Made by a program: the position numbers and the translations under genes
In this document: one piece after another, positions 15,225 to 31,922 of the stretch
Position numbering within the stretch: the stretch's first letter is position 1
How the letters are laid out: every line of letters starts with the position of its first letter
Notes under the pieces: model-generated
Told to the model about the DNA's origin: nothing
Database searches by the model: none
The model's input: the letters and a program-made list of their open reading frames with translations, nothing else
Virus record (IMG/VR): IMGVR_UViG_3300028558_000068
Span: 1-35,853 of that record
Source of the DNA: a virus
Length of the DNA stretch: 35,853 nucleotides
Strand: one strand, 5' to 3'

Positions 15225-15782
15225 CTATTTCTTTAGATTTTCTGGTTTCCTCTGGGAGTTTTTATTCTGCTGGCGGAACTTGTTTTTCCAATCTTGTAGG
15301 TGGTTAAAGGTATCAACAACAATCTTTCCACCCTTAATGTTAGCCGTTTCAATGTCATCATACTCATCCTTTAATAAAGGTCTAACTTCCTTTTGAATGA
15401 TGGGAATGGCACGGTCTTTGATTTTCTGTACTTTAAGGGCAATCTTATTACGTTCAATCTCCTTACCCTCCTTAATCGTTTTTAAGTCCTCAAATGCTTT
15501 CTTTTTTTCAGGCGGAATGGCGGCAAGTTTAATCTGTTGAATCTCATTGCCAATCTTTTCTAATTCCTCAATTTCAGCATTGATTTTATTTTGTAGAGCA
15601 TCGCCTTTTTCCATTAACTCTTTAGGGTTACACTCGTTGGTATACTTTCGTTGCTCTGTTCGCATTTTCTCCAATTCAACTTCAATACCCTCCAACTCAA
15701 TTGAAATTTTCCGGCCTTTAGTAACAAGAATATCTTTTTCTTCCAAATATTCCCGCAGCTTTTTGTTACTGATTATTATCAT
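15225..15782 (-). CDS. coiled-coil protein at end of glycan cassette
   Basis: 185 residues, strongly charged and helical throughout. The heptad pattern runs from about residue 25 to 125 (ELEGIEVELEKMRTEQRKYT, EIEELEKIGNEIQQIKLA). The C-terminus is basic. It overlaps the upstream glycosyltransferase by 17 bases, so the two are translated together. No enzymatic motif is visible. It may be a phage structural spacer or an assembly factor. It could also be cytoplasmic, since no signal peptide is present. Confidence 0.6.
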   Translation of the reverse strand: MIIISNKKLREYLEEKDILVTKGRKISIELEGIEVELEKMRTEQRKYTNECNPKELMEKGDALQNKINAEIEELEKIGNEIQQIKLAAIPPEKKKAFEDLKTIKEGKEIERNKIALKVQKIKDRAIPIIQKEVRPLLKDEYDDIETANIKGGKIVVDTFNHLQDWKNKFRQQNKNSQRKPENLKK

Positions 15783-16416
15783 GTTTTTTATTTATATATT
15801 CTACTATTTCTTCGTGGTGAATAAGTGTGTTGTTAATCATAGAATCCCCGTGAATCCTGTAATTGAACAATCTAATCGGTACTGTGGTGACTGAAAAACC
15901 TGCTTTAGTTGCCCGAATCCAAAAATCCCAGTCCTCATATCCCAATTTCATTTGCTCGTCGTAACCTCCGACCTTTTCCCATATCTTTCGTCTGAATAGG
16001 GATGAGGCTACAATTTGATTATGTTTCCGAAAATCCGCATAGGTTGGGTGGTCTAGGAAACGATAATGTTCTTCTCTGCCGTCAAACTCCGTAACGAATA
16101 CGGCAACTATATCATCTACATCAACCGTGAACTCTAAAAAATGTTCTTCTATCGTGTCATCAGAGTCTAAACAGAGGATATAATCTCCTGTGGCGGCGGC
16201 TATACCCGTGTTCCTTGCCCCAGAAAGGCCTCTATTAGCTTGGTAAATGTACTTAACGGGGTATTTTGCCACTATCTCTTTGGTATTGTCTGCAGAACCA
16301 TCATCAACCACAATGATTTCAAGAGGCGGAACGGTCTGTTTAAGGCAACTCTCTATCGTTTCAGCGATATAGTGTCCGTAATTATATGCTGGAATGATAA
16401 TACTTACGGTAGACAT
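15766..16416 (-). CDS. family 2 glycosyltransferase
   Basis: 216 residues with a textbook GT-A domain: VSIIIPAYNYGHYIAETIES at the N-terminus, IIVVDDGSADNT (34-45), NRGLSGARNTGI (61-72) and the metal/nucleotide-binding DSDD at 84-87. A GYDEQMKLGYEDWDFWIRA segment near the end supplies the usual ED acceptor-side motif. It transfers a sugar from a nucleotide donor. At 216 residues it is short, with little beyond the catalytic domain and no membrane anchor. It shares a 13-base overlap with the GT17-like gene, placing it in the same operon. Confidence 0.88.
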   Translation of the reverse strand: MSTVSIIIPAYNYGHYIAETIESCLKQTVPPLEIIVVDDGSADNTKEIVAKYPVKYIYQANRGLSGARNTGIAAATGDYILCLDSDDTIEEHFLEFTVDVDDIVAVFVTEFDGREEHYRFLDHPTYADFRKHNQIVASSLFRRKIWEKVGGYDEQMKLGYEDWDFWIRATKAGFSVTTVPIRLFNYRIHGDSMINNTLIHHEEIVEYINKKHDNNQ

Positions 16417-17180
16417 AGGTGTTGGTATTTAGCTTTATTATCTTTTAACCATTGAGGCCAATCTGATTCATCTTTCGTGTAGATAAAGGGGCGACCAAGA
16501 AAGTCTTTGCGATTTTCTATATTGGCCTTTAGATTTTTCTCAACTTCTGGTGTCCAATAGCTTTCACGAGTATATGAGCTGATGAGTTTCTCTTTAACAG
16601 ATTCATATCCACCCATTGAGGTGAAATGAAAACCAAAGGTTTGGGTAGTTCCAATACCATTATTAGAACGTAAATGGTTAAGACAGGTATTTTTTATATA
16701 TTTATATGGCGACACAAGTGTTCCCCAAAATTCCTCGGAAGAACGGTTATCGAGATAGTAACAATAAACTTTTAATTTTAATTTAGTGGGTTCATCTATT
16801 ATTAACTTTGTAAGCCAAATCTCATCAACATCACCGATAAAGCAAATATCATCGTCTTGTAAATGAGTGAGGGCCTTCTTGATAGATTCTTTTTGGAGAA
16901 ATTCGTGTTTCCAGTGCGCCGCACCTTTGGTGTTAGGGGAAGATTCAGCTAGGTAGATTTCCTCTGGTGTGTAGGTTTCGTCAATAATAAAGTGCCTTAT
17001 CTTTGGCAAAAACTTTTTGAATCTCTCTTGCTCTAATGGGAAATAGACAAACCTATCCAACCCACTAAACGTCGTTGGTGCTTCTATGATTATAAACTGA
17101 TCAACATAATCATAGAGAATATTGAGTCGTATCTCTAAGATATCCGCTTCACCGTTATAGGAAAAAATATCGTATATCAT
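16404..17180 (-). CDS. family 17-type glycosyltransferase
   Basis: 258 residues. The start MIYDIFSYNGEADILEIRLN, followed by ILYDYVDQFIIIEAPTTFSG, is the hallmark of GT17 (beta-1,4-mannosyl-glycoprotein N-acetylglucosaminyltransferase-like) proteins: D-F.Y.NE-D-LE-RL...LYDYVD.FI..E. An acidic DDDICFIGDVDEIW (about 112-125) is the expected nucleotide-sugar/metal site. Bacterial and phage members occur in glycan clusters; the acceptor here is unknown. ATGA overlaps tie it to both neighbours. Confidence 0.82.
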   Translation of the reverse strand: MIYDIFSYNGEADILEIRLNILYDYVDQFIIIEAPTTFSGLDRFVYFPLEQERFKKFLPKIRHFIIDETYTPEEIYLAESSPNTKGAAHWKHEFLQKESIKKALTHLQDDDICFIGDVDEIWLTKLIIDEPTKLKLKVYCYYLDNRSSEEFWGTLVSPYKYIKNTCLNHLRSNNGIGTTQTFGFHFTSMGGYESVKEKLISSYTRESYWTPEVEKNLKANIENRKDFLGRPFIYTKDESDWPQWLKDNKAKYQHLCLP

Positions 17181-17971
17181 GGTTTTATATAAGTAAATTT
17201 ATCTGTCTGAATAGAACCTGTTGACCAATAGCCTCTGCGCCAGCCGGCCCAATACTTCGGTGCTATGATTTTAGGGTTGTTAGGGTTGAGATATGCCGCC
17301 CACCATGAGAAAGAAGAGTTTGGAATGATAAGCTGTTTGGCATTATACAGGTAAGAGAAATCTACGGAAATATCACCTCCCATGTGGTGTGGGGCTTTGT
17401 GAAAATCCGGCTCTGGTGAACTTATACTTGGAATACCTAGAATCTTAGAGGCAAAATCCGGTTCATCTGAAACCAATTCATATTTCTTGGCTTTCATTTC
17501 CTCCATAGCATCAAAGAAATAACTCTTGGGAAGTAGGACTTCTATATTCTGAAAATCTCCTAAACGGACATGCACAACGCAAGCATCGGTCTTATAGGGA
17601 GCTTGTACCTTAATCCACTTATGAACATTTGGGCTTAGATAGGCAGGTGATTGCATTACACCATCAATCTTCGTGAATGGTCGCACGTTTTGTATTTCAG
17701 GGTCAGTCGTAGATACGTCAATTCCATCTCGCAGAATATAACCTTCAGCAATATAGTTTTTAATACCTTTAGGTAAATGAGGATTGGGTACTTCACCTGT
17801 TCCTTCTAACTTCTCGCCAAAATCCAGTGTGATAAACTTCTTTCCATGAAACCGCTCTGGTGACATTATGGAAAATGGACAACCTAACTTTTCTGCCAAA
17901 GAACGGCACACGGCATACACCCATAGTTGATTACCTAATCCTTGACCTGTGTAGAATTCAGTAGCAATCAT
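17177..17971 (-). CDS. family 11 (alpha-1,2-fucosyltransferase-like) glycosyltransferase
   Basis: 264 residues. The N-terminal GQGLGNQLWVYAVCRSLAEK matches the GGLGNQ.F.YA motif of GT11. HVRLGDF (about 135-141) matches the HxRxGD donor-binding motif. NSSFSWWAAYLNP (about 218-230) matches the SNSSFSWWAA.L motif. GT11 enzymes transfer fucose from GDP-fucose with inversion. Some relatives use other deoxy sugars, so donor specificity is not certain. Operon position is by ATGA overlap on each side. Confidence 0.87.
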   Translation of the reverse strand: MIATEFYTGQGLGNQLWVYAVCRSLAEKLGCPFSIMSPERFHGKKFITLDFGEKLEGTGEVPNPHLPKGIKNYIAEGYILRDGIDVSTTDPEIQNVRPFTKIDGVMQSPAYLSPNVHKWIKVQAPYKTDACVVHVRLGDFQNIEVLLPKSYFFDAMEEMKAKKYELVSDEPDFASKILGIPSISSPEPDFHKAPHHMGGDISVDFSYLYNAKQLIIPNSSFSWWAAYLNPNNPKIIAPKYWAGWRRGYWSTGSIQTDKFTYIKP

Positions 17972-18555
17972 AGTTTTTTATTCCTAAGCAAAATATCAGT
18001 TTTATAATCTTTTACAATCTCAAAATTCGGTAGTAAACCAAGAATTCGCTCTAAGGTTGGCTGGTCTTGATATTGTTCATCATTGCCATATTCGGTATAA
18101 AAATATCTTGTCTTTTTAAGTGTTTCACTGCCGCCGAGAATTATCTGTTCTTCCGCTCCCTGTGCGTCGCACCAAATAAAGTCAATCAATGGCATATCCT
18201 TACAGAACGTATCAAGGCGAACACAGTTGACAACCAATTGTTCCTTGAAGAAAATCCAATCCCACCTTTTAAGGTGGTTTTTTGGTTTCATAATTGAGCC
18301 AGAGAGAGAAAGAGCGTTTGGATTATCTGTACTAGAACGGTTAAAGACTACTTGGCTATCGGAATTACCAACAGCGCCCTGAAACAAGTTAATACCTTTT
18401 ATTGTTTCAAGGATAGCGATATTCTTAGGCTCTGGCTCAAACCCATACACAGTACCAATTTTCATTAATTCTTTAGTGTCTGTTCCATCAGCACACCCTA
18501 TTTCTAGAATCAAGGGATTTTCTCCTACAAGTTGTTTTATTTCTTCTTTTGTCAT
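17968..18555 (-). CDS. FkbM-family SAM-dependent methyltransferase
   Basis: 195 residues with a Rossmann core: PLILEIGCADGTDTKELMKI (SAM-binding motif I), GFEPEPKNI (acidic ribose-binding turn), LFQGAVGNSDSQVVF, VNCVRLDTFC, and IDFIWCDAQGAEEQIILGG. The D.QG.E..IL.G signature is diagnostic of FkbM-type O-methyltransferases. In a glycosyltransferase operon it would cap or methylate a sugar hydroxyl, a common chain-terminating or masking modification. Confidence 0.85.
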   Translation of the reverse strand: MTKEEIKQLVGENPLILEIGCADGTDTKELMKIGTVYGFEPEPKNIAILETIKGINLFQGAVGNSDSQVVFNRSSTDNPNALSLSGSIMKPKNHLKRWDWIFFKEQLVVNCVRLDTFCKDMPLIDFIWCDAQGAEEQIILGGSETLKKTRYFYTEYGNDEQYQDQPTLERILGLLPNFEIVKDYKTDILLRNKKL

Positions 18556-19136
18556 ATTGAATGAAAGCAGAATGTTTTATCTATATCTTTGTTTTCTTCT
18601 ATTGTATGTTCTTTAGAGAAATGAACCGCAACATCTAAAGGGGCGAATGTACAACCATTCTCTTCAAAGACATGGCGCATATTGACTGAAATGAACCCGT
18701 CTTCGTTATAGAAGCCATGAAACGATTTCCACTCCATATGTATCTTTTTAGGTAGGTCTAGGAGGCGTTTTGAGCGCAGAGATACACTATTGCCTACTCT
18801 TTGAATTACCCCCTTAGTATCTCTGTAGGAAAACGAATCTGTAGGAAGTGGCCACGGCGCACCAATGAAATCATAGTTTAACCAATCAGGATTCCATACC
18901 TGGGGATTGATAACGTACCCATCAGCGTGAATGAGTAGGGCAAACTTAGTATTTATGTGGTCGGTTAGGTTAAATACAATATACTTTGACCAATCATCAA
19001 TGGAATCGAAGTGCTTTTCAATCAGTTTAATATCTCCAAACTCAATATCTTTCGAAGATTTATTCAACGCCTGCCAATGAGCAGTAATATCTCTACCAGT
19101 GACCGCAATCAAAGTTACGTCGGGTAGATATATCAT
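18552..19136 (-). CDS. DUF5672-type putative glycosyltransferase
   Basis: 194 residues. VTLIAVTGRDITAHWQALNK opens a GT-A-like fold. The central ALLIHADGYVINPQVWNPDW followed by LNYDFIGAPWP is the signature of DUF5672 proteins, which sit in sugar-modification loci and are thought to be glycosyltransferases. The later NEDGFISVNMRHVFEENGC provides the ED motif. The start is taken at MIYLPDV because its ATG overlaps the upstream stop (ATGA); an ATG three codons earlier is possible. Confidence 0.78.
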   Translation of the reverse strand: MIYLPDVTLIAVTGRDITAHWQALNKSSKDIEFGDIKLIEKHFDSIDDWSKYIVFNLTDHINTKFALLIHADGYVINPQVWNPDWLNYDFIGAPWPLPTDSFSYRDTKGVIQRVGNSVSLRSKRLLDLPKKIHMEWKSFHGFYNEDGFISVNMRHVFEENGCTFAPLDVAVHFSKEHTIEENKDIDKTFCFHSI

Positions 19137-19699
19137 TGTAACCACTTACCTCTAAGATAGATGAATTCTTTACGTTTAATTGATTCTGAAAGTTGGTTGG
19201 TTATTTGATGCTTACCAAGTCCTAATTCAACATTAGCTTTTGGACAAATAGTTGGTTCTCCGTACTTTTGAAATAGTTGCCAGTAGAAATCACAATCAAT
19301 CAGCCACTGCATAGTTTCATCAAACATAAGCCCATTATTCTCAAATAGAAGGGCGGACGGTGAACCGAGTTTGTTATTCCCCGTCAATATGTCTCGTGTC
19401 CAATGTGGATTAGAATTGTTCTGCGTTCCTGTCATAAGCCACCCACCTTTGAAATTATCAACCATATCCTTTAAGGCATCTGTATGGGAAAAGCAATCAT
19501 CTTGAAAGAGAATCTTAATTAGTTCTCCCTTAGCACGTTTCATTCCATCATTTGAATTCCCAGCCATACCATGTCCAGTTTTGCTTATGATTATTTCATA
19601 ATCCGTATATGATTGTTCTGCGATGGAGCAAATATTCCTCCATAAAAACTCCGCACCATTCTGCATGTCATATATCGGAACAATTAAAGATACTTTCAT
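19133..19699 (-). CDS. family 2-like glycosyltransferase
   Basis: 188 residues. It begins MKVSLIVPIYDMQNGAEFLW and has a GT2-type nucleotide-binding start. YEIIISKTGHGMAGNSNDGM replaces the usual VVDDGS...N.G...A.N.G series, and LFQDDCF (about 68-74) stands where DxD is expected. It ends in a helical region with WLIDCDFYWQLFQKYGEP. The divergent acidic motif (QDD) suggests unusual donor handling. A full-length GT2 would be longer, so this is a minimal version. Confidence 0.75.
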   Translation of the reverse strand: MKVSLIVPIYDMQNGAEFLWRNICSIAEQSYTDYEIIISKTGHGMAGNSNDGMKRAKGELIKILFQDDCFSHTDALKDMVDNFKGGWLMTGTQNNSNPHWTRDILTGNNKLGSPSALLFENNGLMFDETMQWLIDCDFYWQLFQKYGEPTICPKANVELGLGKHQITNQLSESIKRKEFIYLRGKWLQ

Positions 19700-20781
19700 A
19701 ATAGTGTTTTATAAGCATAAATCCATTTATAAGCGTTCTTCTCAATATCATATTTCTCTTTAACATATTCAAAAGCTTTTTTACCCAATGTCCGGCGGAT
19801 TTCCTTGTTGGCAATAAGCAATTCTAGGGCATTTATCCAACTCTTAGTATCGGTGGCGAGTATCAAATGTTCTGCGTCTTCTGGGTCTACTTCATAGGGC
19901 GAATCTTTAGAAGGAAATGATTGCGCAATGCAGGGAATTTCAAACATTGATACTTCAAGGAATTTTAGATTTGATTTGCAACGGTTGAAATAGGTATCTG
20001 CTCTTGGAATGACCGCAATATCCAATTTCAAATTATTTATCGTGTCAAAATACTCATCGTGGGGAACGAACGGCTGATGCTCTAGATTCATTACTGTCTT
20101 CATTTCATCCCAGAACTTATATTCTTCTGAATAGATACGACGCACTTCTACATCTTGCCGGTTTGCTGGCAAAGAAAATAAAACAAACTGTACTCGCCTA
20201 TCATCTTTGTAGTGAAGCATAATGGGTTTAAGAACATCAAAATCAGAAGTAATGCCAATGGAGCCGATAATACCAATCCTAATTATATCGGTTTCATTTC
20301 GTAATGGTTCATCAAAATAAAAGGGGTCTACGCAGTTAGGCAATACGACAACATTGGGATTTAATTTTAAATATTCCTGTCGTAGAAATTCTGTGGTGCA
20401 GGTTACGAGGTCTGCTTCTCGGATAAAAGCATCGGTTACCTCATTGAGGTGTTGGAGGCCACGACTAATCCTAGCTTTATCCATGAAATCGTTGAGCTTA
20501 AATTCGCCCACATCGCTTTTAAACGTGTCGTCATTATCAAATACTATCTTCTGGCCACGGTCTTTTAATATCCTAGCGAGTTCTAATTTCTTTGCTTGTT
20601 CTGGTCTATGAAAAACAACTATATCTGCGTTTTGTGCGGCACGGGATTTATCTTCTGGGGTCTTAGCACGTTCACGCTTAATGCTCGTGTAGTCGCCATC
20701 GCCGCCTAAAACTTGTAAAGGCAAAAGACAACGAACGAAGTAACAGCCAGATAACCCCGATTCTACAAAATATGTCTTCAT
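19696..20781 (-). CDS. GT-B (GT4-like) glycosyltransferase
   Basis: 361 residues in two Rossmann halves. The N-terminal half holds DIVVFHRPEQAKKLELA, IVFDNDDTF and ADLVTCTTEFLRQEYLKLNP. The linker VVVLPNCVDPFYFDEP leads to the C-terminal donor domain with IGIIGSIGITSDFDVLKPIM, DIAVIPRADTYFNRCKSN and LKFLEVSMFEIPCIAQ (E in the usual EX7E area), then SPYEV. DDTF and NRCKSNLKF..EV are recurrent in tetratricopeptide-linked and viral GT4 proteins. It is the first large gene of the cassette, translationally coupled to a 48-codon gene upstream. Confidence 0.85.
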   Translation of the reverse strand: MKTYFVESGLSGCYFVRCLLPLQVLGGDGDYTSIKRERAKTPEDKSRAAQNADIVVFHRPEQAKKLELARILKDRGQKIVFDNDDTFKSDVGEFKLNDFMDKARISRGLQHLNEVTDAFIREADLVTCTTEFLRQEYLKLNPNVVVLPNCVDPFYFDEPLRNETDIIRIGIIGSIGITSDFDVLKPIMLHYKDDRRVQFVLFSLPANRQDVEVRRIYSEEYKFWDEMKTVMNLEHQPFVPHDEYFDTINNLKLDIAVIPRADTYFNRCKSNLKFLEVSMFEIPCIAQSFPSKDSPYEVDPEDAEHLILATDTKSWINALELLIANKEIRRTLGKKAFEYVKEKYDIEKNAYKWIYAYKTLL

Positions 20782-21170: not shown

Positions 21171-22425
21171 TCAAGCGGGGGTAACAACATTGATGCCCGC
21201 ATTTGAACGATTCAAGATTACACCGTAGAGAATATCTGCGGTGGTAACGGTTGAAAGGTACTGCGGAACATAGTTGGACTGAACACGAATGCCGTTGGAA
21301 CCAACCATTGCACCCATTGAGCCGCCAGAACCCAAAGGAGCTGTGGCAAAATGGATAGAATCGCTGTGAGCAAGGGCATTGTAGCGGCCAGTTGTGCCGG
21401 AGACATACTGAATGGAATTGCTGATGTAAACAGGAATGCCATAGAGAGTCGCACGGGGCAACTTCGCTACTGGGTCTTGCACTGGAGAGTTGATGGCAAG
21501 GGAGAATTTATCAATTCCTTGCAATTGCTTCCAGAACACGTTCGGAGACAAGAAGAATGCACATTCCTCAATATCCACGTTGTTGGTCTCCAACTGTGCG
21601 ATAGCCGCACGAACATCGGAGTCGGCGAGGTTTACGGTTGAAGAACCAACAGATGTGGTGAATGTACCGAAAATGGTAGCAATCGCAACATCGAGGGTCT
21701 TAGCAATCTCGTAACCGCAGTTCTTTGCATAGCGCTCCATGAGGGAGTACGAAGCAAAAATCTGAGCCGCTTCTGCATCTTCAATCGCAAACGAACATTC
21801 ATACCAGTTTGAAATGGTAAGAGTGATTTTTGTGTCTGAAGGAGCGTTAAGAGTTACCGTAGTGGCATTGCTCTTAGCATTTGCTGTGAATTCCGTGAGT
21901 GTCGGAGTGTACAGAGAGCGTGCGCCATCGGCGACTTCATCTGAACGGTCTACGAAGAAGTCAGCGCAAACGATTTTCTGTTTATAGAAGTCGTTAAGGC
22001 GCTGGCCCCACTTCAACTTGTTGTTACTAACTCTTTCGAGTCGCCGAGGGCATTTCTGCTCGGTCAATGTTTTTATATATAGACACTGGTCGGACTATTG
22101 CATGAGCATTTATGCTCCCAAATCACTTAGTCTCTGCAAGTCCTCTCTTATTTAATACTCGTAACTTAGAATATATTTCAGCTTTTGCCTCATCGTATTT
22201 GTGGTCTTCAAATCCATCTATAAATCCTGCTATATATTCTTTAGATAACTTCACCCCATAAGTATAGGGTTAGAGTATTAAATTGTTAAGGTTCTTGAGC
22301 GTTGGCTATTTAGTTACTTCTTAGCTATTCGCCATTGATTAGATTCGGTTTTAAATCCCCCTGAATGGGAAAGGGATTTCACTGGCTAGAGACGCTTGGG
22401 TCTCTGAACCGGCAGGAAAAGCCAT
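21171..22425 (-). CDS. major capsid protein, gene split by a group I intron
   Basis: Coding exons are 22425-22372 and 22016-21171, giving 299 residues after splicing. Exon 1 encodes MAFPAGSETQASLASEIP; exon 2 continues LKWGQRLNDFYKQKIVCADF. The joined sequence restores the usual N-terminus of this P22/HK97-type capsid family (…SEIW…RLN.FYK..IV.ADFF.DRSDEVADG). Downstream blocks PTLTEFTANAKSNATTVTLN, ITLTISNWYECSFAIEDAEA and ERYAKNCGYEIAKTLD are typical. Read without splicing, exon 2 would need a TTG start at 22067 whose first 17 codons are intron sequence. Many copies of the product form the icosahedral shell. Confidence 0.85.
22017..22371 (-). mobile_element. group I intron in the capsid gene, 355 nt
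   Basis: Diagnostic elements on the minus strand are as follows. P1: exon AAATCCCT pairs with internal guide GGGGATTT and places a U-G pair at the 5' splice site. P10: the guide's upstream UUCAG pairs with UUGAA at the start of exon 2, fixing the 3' splice site after an omega G. P7: GCAGAGACTA with ATAGTCC (GACTA/TAGTC at 22128-22132 and 22093-22097). P8: GAGCAT/ATGCTC (22104-22117). P3: AATCA/TGATT. P9 region: CCGAG/CTCGG and an ACTC-GAAA-GAGT tetraloop hairpin. The reading frame is preserved by splicing. Confidence 0.88.
22123..22254 (-). pseudogene. remnant LAGLIDADG homing endonuclease ORF inside the intron
   Basis: A GTG-started 43-codon ORF, KLSKEYIAGFIDGFEDHKYD and onward. YIAGFIDG is the LAGLIDADG helix, which an intact enzyme follows with a roughly 100-residue domain. 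Here it jumps directly to EAEIYSKL-like C-terminal helix sequence (AKAEIYSKLRVLNKRG) and stops inside the intron's R element. The interior has therefore been deleted. It cannot be an active nuclease alone. The intron core remains intact, so splicing likely persists without mobility. Confidence 0.72.
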
Positions 22426-23902: not shown

Positions 23903-25783
23903 TTATTGTTGAGCTACTTGAGCCTGTTGCTGTGGTTGCACCGGAGAAGGAGTCGGAGCTTGCGGCGTGGCCTGTGGTGCGGGAGCTGTTGCGCTAATAG
24001 GTTTTCCAATACCTAATGATACTGGACTAATTCCTGCGCCGGAGAGTTCTAAGATAGTTCCAAAGATACGAGACATAACGGGGTCTTCAAGAACAGAAAA
24101 CTTACCAGTCTGGGGATTAAAGGACTTCATGACATCACCCATAATCGTTGAGAGCGATTGCAGGATAGCTGATTTATTCTTCTGCTCACCCGTGGTCATG
24201 ACAGTAACTTTAGCTTCAATGTCATCAAAGTAACCATCGGGGATTTCAAGAAAACGCTTCTGGCCTTTCAACATTGTCTTAAAACCTTCTATTGCCGAGT
24301 TATATTGCTCTAGGGATACTATCTTATTGGCTAGAATTGCCTCTTTAAGGCGAGCATTTGCTTGGGAGATAGCAAACTGTGTATCAATGACTTCAAGCTC
24401 GTCTGCGGTGAAATCAGTAGCAAGGAGATGACCTTTCTTGAGTTTCTTAATGAGATGAGGAATGATTCTCTTTTCCCAAATTCGTGACCAAAAAATACCA
24501 GCCTCTTCACGGCGATAGTCAAAAGGTTTAGAAGCTACAGCATTGAGTAATGCAGTTTGAGAGTAAGGTGTATCGGCAGGCGGTTGCTTTCCTGTATTAG
24601 CGTCAAATGATGAGGTAGCTTGGTCAGCTTGGTTCTGCCAACGAGTAACAATCTCCTGCATCTTTCCAAGAGCCGAGGGCATAAGCTCAAGTTTCTCAAC
24701 CGTCTTTCCTTCTTCAAGTTCAAAGATATGGCCGTTGTCTAATTCTAAAATGTTATTACCAATCTGCTTTGAGTTCGTGGTAATCAAAACTTTAGCGGCT
24801 AAGTCCATAGCTGTCTTTTCAGTGATGACAGCGTCATTAGTCCATACTTGGGCTTCTTCAGAGTCTTCTACGATTCCCCTACCAAGCGCACGGCCAGGCA
24901 TTTCTTCCCACGGGAGATAATCAAATGGTGATTCTTTTAACTTCTCGCAAAAGAGTGGATACGCTTTTCCTGAAACTTCGGCATAGAAATAATGTTGGAG
25001 TGAGTAAGTGTACTCATCGTCAGACTCGTTATCCATTCCCTGAAAGTCATAGTAATAATCTTCCGAGAACATACCCGTAACCTCACGGATAATAATGCGG
25101 TCAGTGTTGTGGACTTCTTCTTTGTTGTCGTATTTCTGTGACTGGCCTTTGGTCTTCTTGGTGTTCTTGATGATTGTGTTTATGTTGGAAAGAGTCCATA
25201 CCTTTTCCTTGTCTTTGAGTTGAACGGGCGTAAAGTAATGTGTCTCAACAATCGCACCGGAGAGAATATCTACTTGGTCTGTTGCGACGTTGCGCCAATC
25301 AAGCGTGTCAATGAACAATTCATCCTCACCTTCGTCGTCTTTCTGAATGGTGGTCTTGAGTAATGCACCACCGTATTTCGCACGCACCTGTCCAGAGTTG
25401 TTAAGGGTATAAGAGAAATTAACTTTCTTCATCCATTCGTATGACTCCTTTTGGAGAAGCATTGACTGAATGTAGTGTTCAGGGTCGTCAGAGGTTATCT
25501 GAACGTCTTTGATGTCTAAATCAGTTGCGGTCTTCGCTAGGGTGACACGGAAATTACAAATGTTGTAAAACGGCTGTTCACGCTGGGCGTTGAGTGTCAG
25601 GTTATATTCCAGTCCTGTGTTGATTGTGCCATTGAGATACTTGGAGTTTGTGTAGAACTCCACCATCATTAGCTTCTTATGTTGGTTAAAAGGGAGTCCT
25701 TTAACTATTTGAACCGAGCGAGTTTCGTAATCAGCGATGAGCTTCTTTACTTCCTCGTTGAGTTTGATTTTATGTTCTTGCAT
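23903..25783 (-). CDS. portal protein
   Basis: 626 residues starting at MQEHKIKLNEEVKKLIADYE, right after a leader hairpin; an ATG ten codons upstream would lie within that hairpin. Segments typical of podoviral-type portals include an N-terminal helical arm, DWRNVATDQVD (about 150-160), PFDYLPWEEMPGRALGRGIV (wing/stem boundary), NDAVITEKTAMDLAAKVLIT and the long helix RREEAGIFWSRIWEKRIIP. The C-terminus is Gln/Pro-rich (about 600-626). Twelve copies would form the DNA channel. Located between terminase and capsid genes as expected. Confidence 0.82.
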   Translation of the reverse strand: MQEHKIKLNEEVKKLIADYETRSVQIVKGLPFNQHKKLMMVEFYTNSKYLNGTINTGLEYNLTLNAQREQPFYNICNFRVTLAKTATDLDIKDVQITSDDPEHYIQSMLLQKESYEWMKKVNFSYTLNNSGQVRAKYGGALLKTTIQKDDEGEDELFIDTLDWRNVATDQVDILSGAIVETHYFTPVQLKDKEKVWTLSNINTIIKNTKKTKGQSQKYDNKEEVHNTDRIIIREVTGMFSEDYYYDFQGMDNESDDEYTYSLQHYFYAEVSGKAYPLFCEKLKESPFDYLPWEEMPGRALGRGIVEDSEEAQVWTNDAVITEKTAMDLAAKVLITTNSKQIGNNILELDNGHIFELEEGKTVEKLELMPSALGKMQEIVTRWQNQADQATSSFDANTGKQPPADTPYSQTALLNAVASKPFDYRREEAGIFWSRIWEKRIIPHLIKKLKKGHLLATDFTADELEVIDTQFAISQANARLKEAILANKIVSLEQYNSAIEGFKTMLKGQKRFLEIPDGYFDDIEAKVTVMTTGEQKNKSAILQSLSTIMGDVMKSFNPQTGKFSVLEDPVMSRIFGTILELSGAGISPVSLGIGKPISATAPAPQATPQAPTPSPVQPQQQAQVAQQ

Positions 25784-25785
25784 TG

Positions 25786-25834
25786 AAATTGTTGGTGTTG
25801 TGCAACGCAACAATTTTTATATGGTGTAATTATA
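25786..25834 (-). promoter_or_regulatory. portal-gene promoter and leader hairpin
   Basis: The minus strand has TAGTGGTATAAT, an extended -10 box (TATAAT at 25829-25834); no good -35. Predicted start near 25822. The 39-base leader is mostly a hairpin: AAATTGTTG (25786-25794) pairs perfectly with CAACAATTT (25808-25816), ending two bases before the ATG, and there is no Shine-Dalgarno. Same design as the tail-operon leader. Confidence 0.6.
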
Positions 25835-25853: not shown

Positions 25854-27095
25854 CTAGCGTGCATGGTTTTGGAGGTTTCGTCTACGCTCATTCATTCGTC
25901 GTATCGCCTCTCCTGGGCTTATAACAGGGTCTTTTTGATGAGTCATTACCACATAGCGTAGTGAATCTATAGCATGGTCATTTTCCTTGATTGGATTCTC
26001 ATCTTCATTGTGGTTTTCTTTCTTATCGCTATATCGATAGTTTTCCATTTCCCAGATTAAATTCACGCACCGTTTGTGAATATGGAGTTTGCCCATCTTG
26101 AATAGCAAATGCATTTTATCTATGCCCGATTTTATTGAGCCTTTACCTTTTACCACTTCCATTACGGGAACATTTTTACCAACTAATAGAGATATAGCAC
26201 TTACGTTTTCTGGGTCAGGATAGACACGATTAAATTTACATAGAGCTACATAGTCAGCAATCTGTTCTTCACTTCTTTCTGTCCGATACCATTCGTCATT
26301 AACATAATAATGCTCATTTTTGAATTTAACATGAGTAACCGCCGCAGGATTCTTATATCCAAAGTCTACCCCACCAAGAAACTCTGTTTCACCCTCAACC
26401 TCTGAATCGTATACATGACGCTCACGATTAAACTCTTTAAAAACTAATCCTTCCAACTTGCGGAAGTCGGCCATATACTCTTGAACAAATCTATCTTCGG
26501 TGATTTCATTCTTAATGCGTTCAATTTCTTTTGGGTCGTTGGCTGGATTGTCGTATGACGTTGCATGAGAATAAAACCAATCAGGATTATTCTGCGCCCT
26601 CGTGGTTAAAGTATAAAAATCATTGAAGCCGTTAGGTGTGGAACCAAAAACAGCACGGCCTTTTGTTGTAAGAAGTGTTGGTGCTAATACCTTATCAAAA
26701 TACTCCATGAACGCACGGCAGAAAGCTACTTCGTCAGCAAGGATTAAATCATTCTCAGTCCCACGGCCTTTGCCTGTTTGATATACCGATTCCCAGCCTT
26801 TGAGCGAAACAAGTGATGTGCCTCCCTTTAGATTCTGTACCTTGATTTCAAGCAGAGTTTCATTCTTTGACACAACCGCTTCACCAAATACTTCTAAAAA
26901 GATATTCCATGCAATATCCCTTGCATCGCCAAAGGTTTGAGCGTAATACGAAACGTGAGCATTGTTAATGGTGAGAGCCGTTCCTAATGCTTCATAGGCA
27001 AAGAGTGTGGTCTTACCACTACGTCTGCCCCAATTCAAAACTTTGAATCTAGACTTGTTGAGGATTACTTCCTCCTGTTTCTGGGTTAGTTCCAT
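25854..27095 (-). CDS. terL: terminase large subunit
   Basis: 413 residues. The ATPase has Walker A GRRSGKTT (23-30), Walker B LILADE (117-122, catalytic Glu122) and coupling motif GSTPNGFNDF (151-160). The C-terminal RNase H-like nuclease starts FLGGVDFGYKNPAAV (Asp244) and ends with NDHAIDSLRYVV, supplying the other acidic residue. TerL pumps DNA into the procapsid through the portal and cuts concatemers. Its start lies inside the 3' end of the upstream TerS-like gene (47-base overlap). Confidence 0.93.
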   Translation of the reverse strand: MELTQKQEEVILNKSRFKVLNWGRRSGKTTLFAYEALGTALTINNAHVSYYAQTFGDARDIAWNIFLEVFGEAVVSKNETLLEIKVQNLKGGTSLVSLKGWESVYQTGKGRGTENDLILADEVAFCRAFMEYFDKVLAPTLLTTKGRAVFGSTPNGFNDFYTLTTRAQNNPDWFYSHATSYDNPANDPKEIERIKNEITEDRFVQEYMADFRKLEGLVFKEFNRERHVYDSEVEGETEFLGGVDFGYKNPAAVTHVKFKNEHYYVNDEWYRTERSEEQIADYVALCKFNRVYPDPENVSAISLLVGKNVPVMEVVKGKGSIKSGIDKMHLLFKMGKLHIHKRCVNLIWEMENYRYSDKKENHNEDENPIKENDHAIDSLRYVVMTHQKDPVISPGEAIRRMNERRRNLQNHAR

Positions 27096-31441: not shown

Positions 31442-31526
31442 ATTCGCTCAATCACCAATGTAGCAACTGATGGAGAGGACAAGAAAACTGTGTATAAGTT
31501 GCGTGTGTCGCAGGCAGACGTGGTGG

Positions 31527-31532
31527 TACAAT
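31527..31532 (+). promoter_or_regulatory. extended -10 before NinG-like gene, leaderless
   Basis: TGGTACAAT with AGGGGA between the -10 and the ATG, placing transcription start at the codon. The AGGGGA is too close to the ATG to act as a normal Shine-Dalgarno. No clear -35. Confidence 0.5.
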
Positions 31533-31538
31533 AGGGGA

Positions 31539-31922
31539 ATGAAATCGGTAACTAGAAAGATACAAGATAAGCTCTGGGAACATTGTAAACGAATAACCCG
31601 TGAAAAATACAAAAACCAAGATGGAAGTTTTAACTGTTTCACCTGTGGGCGTAGGATTGATTCACCATCAAGTGCCCAAACTGGACACTTTATCCCCTCT
31701 TCAATCTGTGGTGCTTACCTACGGTATGACCTCCGTAATCTTAGAATTCAATGCTACCACTGCAACATTAATCTTGGAGGAAGCGGGGCAACATATTATA
31801 AAAACCTCGTGGCGGAAGTCGGCCAAGTAGCAGTTGACCAACTCTTCAAAGACAAACAGAAAATCGTCAAAGCCCTTGAACATTATCAAAAACTCCTCAA
31901 AGAATACGAAGCCTTCTTATGA
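31539..31922 (+). CDS. ninG: NinG/Rap-like recombination endonuclease
   Basis: 127 residues from MKSVTRKIQDKLWEHCKRIT. Cys33/Cys36 (CFTCGRR), TGHFIPSS (His50), LRYDLRNLRIQCYHCN (Cys72/Cys75) and GGSGATYYKNLVAEVGQVAV reproduce the lambda NinG order CxxC...GH...R...NI..QC..CN...SGN...Y...G...VD. Lambda NinG (Rap) is a structure-specific nuclease acting on recombination intermediates. The protein is shorter than lambda's, lacking its N-terminal zinc segment. An in-frame ATG 23 codons upstream exists, but the promoter-adjacent ATG is preferred. Confidence 0.82.
   Translation: MKSVTRKIQDKLWEHCKRITREKYKNQDGSFNCFTCGRRIDSPSSAQTGHFIPSSICGAYLRYDLRNLRIQCYHCNINLGGSGATYYKNLVAEVGQVAVDQLFKDKQKIVKALEHYQKLLKEYEAFL

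Follow-up and report, generated by a model that had tools for sequence, protein, structure and literature searches.

A predicted self-splicing group I intron with a decayed endonuclease gene in a phage major capsid gene

What interrupts the major capsid protein (MCP) gene of this virus, and can the message still yield capsid protein? In the window, by which we mean the entire 35,853-nucleotide stretch analysed, reading from the MCP start codon on the minus strand meets a stop after 24 codons unless the RNA is spliced. A mechanical ORF caller instead begins at a TTG at 22067 and reports a protein of 298 aa, which loses the 18 residues of exon 1 and gains 17 false residues encoded by the 3' end of the intron. 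This is the annotation error that a preliminary description, made from the sequence, had foreseen when it placed a group I intron in this gene. Conceptual removal of 22371–22017 yields an in-frame ORF of 299 aa, with the insertion point right after codon 18, between IP and LKWG. The spliced protein reads MAFPAGSETQASLASEIP+LKWGQRLNDFYK... in frame across the junction, the predicted exon–exon DNA being GAAATCCCT joined to TTGAAGTGGGG, and it matches the PHROG 267 (major head protein) profile with an E value of 6.4e-18 over residues 14–297. Coordinates of the features are collected in Table 1, where related loci are given by number.

Table 1. Features of the interrupted MCP gene in the window, and further intron sites in MCP genes of related loci
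Feature	Position	Strand	Details
MCP exon 1	22372..22425	minus	18 codons, ATG at 22425; in-frame spliced ORF, uninterrupted N-terminus in L001-L009
Predicted group I intron	22017..22371	minus	355 nt, phase 0, terminal G22017; helices and covariation, covariance model, empty-site homologues
MCP exon 2	21171..22016	minus	spliced protein matches phrog_267
Mis-called ORF, TTG start within intron	21171..22067	minus	ORF finder output
P1	22353..22379	minus	exon AAATCCCT 22379-22372 with guide GGGGATTT 22360-22353; 8/8 pairs
P10, intron half UUCAG	22361..22365	minus	partner exon 2 UUGAA 22016-22012; from sequence
P3	22342..22348 (5' strand); 22124-22118 (3' strand)	minus	CCGAAUC with GAUUUGG; 7/7 paired
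P4 enclosing P5	22298..22333	minus	P4 GGCG 22333-22330 with CGCU 22301-22298; P5 GCUA 22325-22322 with UAGC 22308-22305
P6	22294..22297 (5' strand); 22140-22137 (3' strand)	minus	CAAG with CUUG; L6 holds endonuclease remnant
P7, P3 3' strand and P8	22093..22132	minus	P7 GACUA 22132-22128 with UAGUC 22097-22093; P8 GAGCA 22117-22113 with UGCUC 22108-22104
P9, P9.1, P9.2 (three 3' hairpins)	22030..22088	minus	all pairs formed
Remnant LAGLIDADG endonuclease ORF	22123..22254	minus	GTG start, 43 codons; aligned to intact relatives
Promoter-like TTAACA-17-TATACT	22261..22289	minus	ahead of remnant ORF; 10/12 matches, shuffle p 0.02
Intron site after codon 4 (MAFP/T)			HNH-like ORF; L215, L269, L275, L277, L263, L266
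Intron site near codons 74-76			L050, L198, L259, L262, L269, L274
Intron site 178/179			L094/L148
Intron site 211/212			L099

The site and the frame are fixed by uninterrupted homologues. When exon 2 alone served as the query, the viral contigs first found (nine of nine) carried the MCP gene in one piece (MAFPTGTETQTTLASEIPLKWGQRL...). Because these nine relatives have the same gene uninterrupted, they establish the empty site. The closest three (L001–L003) are 83–89% identical to the window over the protein; their unbroken N-terminus reads MAFPT..ET.TTLA.EIPLxWGQ..., and an example of the empty-site DNA is GAAATCCCT-CTTAAGTGGGG. Joining codon 18 to LKWGQRL thus gives the standard capsid N-terminus, as had been proposed, and the spliced protein matches intronless homologues at that end when aligned to them.

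The core fold is also evident from comparison. P1 and P3–P9.2 all form in the window, with core P3–P8 in the right order; no P7.1 or P7.2 was seen between P7 and P3 of the window intron. U22372.G22360 supplies the U.G wobble of P1 at the 5' splice site, and G22017 is the last base of the intron. The earlier splice sites and coordinates, including the UUGAA/UUCAG pairing, are exact on the minus strand. P10 covaries with its exon partner: the window has UUGAA/UUCAG, L065 has UAUUAUG/CAUAAUA. Across 10 introns P3 shows double changes at 7/7 positions, and P9, P9.1 and P9.2 each have 4–5 double-changed positions. For the window and nine relatives together, 494/505 cells are paired, with double changes in every helix, although the helix strands for this count were picked by hand, which favours pairing. 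An independent check comes from a covariance model, R1, built from the 3' half of the intron in nine relatives with the window left out. R1 matches the window at 22146–22017 with 101.5 bits (E 2.6e-21), and the last base of the match is the predicted terminal G. This is its sole match in the 35,853 bases on both strands, and it has none in the searched loci with intronless capsid genes. Together with the P1/P10 pairings and the core helices, the R1 score upholds the assignment of 22017–22371 to a group I intron.

A search with the Rfam model Intron_gpI (RF00028), which the preliminary description had suggested as a check, gave no match in the window at the gathering threshold or at E≤10. We do not take this as a refutation, because the model is insensitive here: it scores above threshold in just 2 of 20 loci picked by a P7 motif and matches none of the codon-18-site introns in ten loci, making the test uninformative at this site. 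In two of those ten loci, L094 and L050, RF00028 does pick up introns at other places in the capsid gene.

L6 contains a short ORF that the preliminary description did not pick up. Its sequence, VKLSKEYIAGFIDGFEDHKYDEAKAEIYSKLRVLNKRGLAETK, consists of an N-terminal LAGLIDADG motif, LSKEYIAGFIDG, fused to a C-terminus, YSKLRVLNKRGLAETK; of a full-length ORF it keeps the initial 14 residues and roughly the final 22. Intact endonuclease ORFs of 153–170 aa are found within the codon-18-site introns of L065, L111 and L094; they are similar to LAGLIDADG enzymes of solved structure, I-MsoI among them, score against Pfam LAGLIDADG_1 (PF00961) with E values of 1e-10 to 3e-7, and can be aligned with the remnant at its two ends. 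By itself the remnant receives no meaningful Pfam score. The window reads IAGFIDGF where relatives have IAGFIDGEG, so that the acidic catalytic residue after IDG is lost, and the full domain is missing (43 codons compared to about 150–170 aa in relatives). These alignments establish, at the level of sequence, that the endonuclease gene has decayed. L050, whose 227-nt intron at the codon-18 site has no endonuclease gene, shows the end point of such loss. The C-terminal codons of the remnant overlap P6, P7 and P3, and because the same DNA forms these helices, the 3' end of the remnant is under ribozyme constraint.

Could the remnant instead encode a small protein with a function of its own, such as help in RNA folding? 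Its frame is preserved across the deletion, and a start codon and promoter-like sequence precede it. We consider this very unlikely, however, as the catalytic residue and the entire DNA-contacting middle are missing, the retained C-terminus is forced by P6/P7/P3, and L050 lacks the gene altogether. The promoter-like signal is suggestive only, and in L6 it is significant in some introns only. TTGACA/TACACT-type promoter-like pairs at similar spacing lie ahead of the endonuclease ORFs in L6 of relatives, the window version being TTAACA-17-TATACT. A codon-18-site intron in L097 (6687–6829 and upstream) carries an unrelated-looking ORF (MPRQKASKICIKCNTNNSKYGNYCGVC...); because of this dissimilarity, its endonuclease has probably been exchanged.

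We therefore read the insert, very probably correctly, as a self-splicing group I intron in the MCP gene whose endonuclease has decayed, and which splices without homing by itself. In the late pre-mRNA, the guide would pair with the end of exon 1 to form P1, with the U.G at the splice site. A guanosine held in P7 would attack after U22372; exon 1, released in this way and held by P10, would then attack after G22017 to give an uninterrupted 299-codon MCP message. L6 of the ancestral intron would have contained a gene for a single-motif LAGLIDADG homing endonuclease, and the intron would once have been able to home. An internal deletion, by which some 110 codons and with them the catalytic acidic residue were lost, would have abolished self-homing and kept splicing, with the ribozyme-critical end of the gene, overlapping P6, P7 and P3, being retained. 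We infer that the intron is immobile at present. To judge from its sequence, then, a gutted LAGLIDADG gene in L6 is the new feature of this intron, which should splice but not home on its own. Because hundreds of copies of the capsid protein are required, splicing in an MCP gene must be efficient.

A former intron that had lost splicing would leave the capsid gene broken and the virus dead or defective. Decay of the endonuclease and the remodelling of P5 relative to relatives point in that direction, but a homing endonuclease is not required for group I intron splicing, and L050 has an intron of 227 nt at the codon-18 site without one. All core helices, P10, the U.G pair and the terminal G are intact, and no stop interrupts the 299 codons of the two exons; we regard loss of splicing as highly improbable. 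There is next to no chance that the insert is not spliced at all, with the ribosome bypassing it or translation beginning at TTG 22067: the TTG start reported by the ORF caller and the absence of an Rfam intron match would fit, but the 17 added residues come from the 3' end of the intron and are missing in uninterrupted homologues, residues 1–18 common to those homologues would be dropped, and the exon joint coincides exactly with the end of a covarying ribozyme core.

Homologous introns occupy the same capsid site in relatives and include ones with intact endonucleases, an observation new here. We delimited 13 introns at the codon-18 site (the window and 12 loci), and splicing restores IP[LEKQ]xWG or its equivalent in every case with both exons readable. 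The host MCPs include ones just 23–40% identical to that of the window. In L065, L138 and L094 the insertion point is shifted downstream by one nucleotide (phase 1) relative to the others and the window (phase 0), with the frame restored in each. Comparing the window with L065, the 3' half of the intron is 85% identical and exon 2 DNA 68%, and the nearest capsid relatives of the window have no intron. On sequence grounds, this contrast and the intronless nearest relatives fit sporadic horizontal acquisition; ribozyme constraint could also contribute to the 85% identity.

The codon-18 site is one of five group I intron sites in the same MCP family of related uncultivated viruses, and this repeated targeting of one capsid gene family, at four sites beyond codon 18, is likewise new. 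A scan based on the MCP alone found at least one intron by R1 in 14 of 80 loci (the 80 best of 125), with the query taken from intron-bearing relatives and two of the 14 being identical sequences from two samples. In the scan closest to the window's subgroup, 1 of 19 (L198) had an intron. Given the origin of the query, the identical pair and the 1 of 19, we limit the claim of a hotspot to the wider group. Within this phage group, with five sites and 14 of 80 best loci, the preliminary view of capsid genes as rare intron hosts does not hold. Since this one gene has been invaded repeatedly, what introns cost and how they spread can be tested within a single gene family. Because ORF callers and Rfam Intron_gpI miss these introns, automatic annotation probably gives the capsid genes of these phages wrong starts or splits them. 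Two group I introns occur in a single capsid gene in L094/L148, L262, L269 and L050. Group I introns with LAGLIDADG-like ORFs were also seen in L053 (around 6112) and L020 (around 2211), apparently in other structural genes of phages.

Capsid introns were already known, and the window intron adds another. Mycobacteriophage LittleE (Cluster J) has one whose splicing was shown by RT-PCR and N-terminal sequencing (PMC3706429); it agrees with the window's in belonging to the group I type, in interrupting the major capsid gene of a phage, in its association with a LAGLIDADG-like endonuclease and in its U/...G ends. The LittleE insert differs in its length of 819 bp, in having its endonuclease encoded on the opposite strand, in the capsid and host concerned, and in the single capsid intron site reported, compared to five in the MCP family of the window. 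A capsid-gene intron in Tuc2009 is cited in the same paper. Judging by a title listed in PMC8541194 (Foley et al. 2000), Streptococcus thermophilus phages have a group I intron with three deletion derivatives, a parallel to the window, although the gene is that for lysin rather than capsid. Genes of the huge Jug phages of the gut (360–402 kb) are often fragmented by group I introns (PMC12363816), those reported being terL, nrdD and DNA polymerase, whereas in the window it is the MCP gene. Our incomplete coverage of the literature turned up no paper on this phage group or on several intron sites in one capsid gene.

Among named phages there was no relative of the capsid protein and none of the whole intron, apart from one weak 34-base match; named-phage terminase matches are only about 29% identical. 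GTDB genome contigs held no relative of capsid or terminase. Weak Shine-Dalgarno sequences and enrichment of A upstream of start codons are typical of Bacteroidota hosts. Among 36 window genes checked, none has a strong (AGGAG-type) Shine-Dalgarno, two carry a 4-base core of any kind, against 1.9 expected, and A is enriched at –3, –6 to –8 and –14. This Bacteroidota-like start-site pattern is a clue to the host, and does not settle the earlier suggestion of a CPR host.

In gene order, the MCP gene lies downstream of the terminase gene (25854–27095). A large ORF at 23903–25813, for which no family match was found, takes the usual portal position upstream of the MCP gene. A GAAGCC motif upstream of the capsid start proved not to be general. 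At 31470–31922 the window encodes a NinG/Rap-like HNH protein (Pfam NinG, E 8.7e-13). On its downstream side the capsid gene is followed directly, at 15766–20781, by a series of ORFs that look by eye like sugar transferases and methyltransferases, and such genes occupy this place in L275 too.
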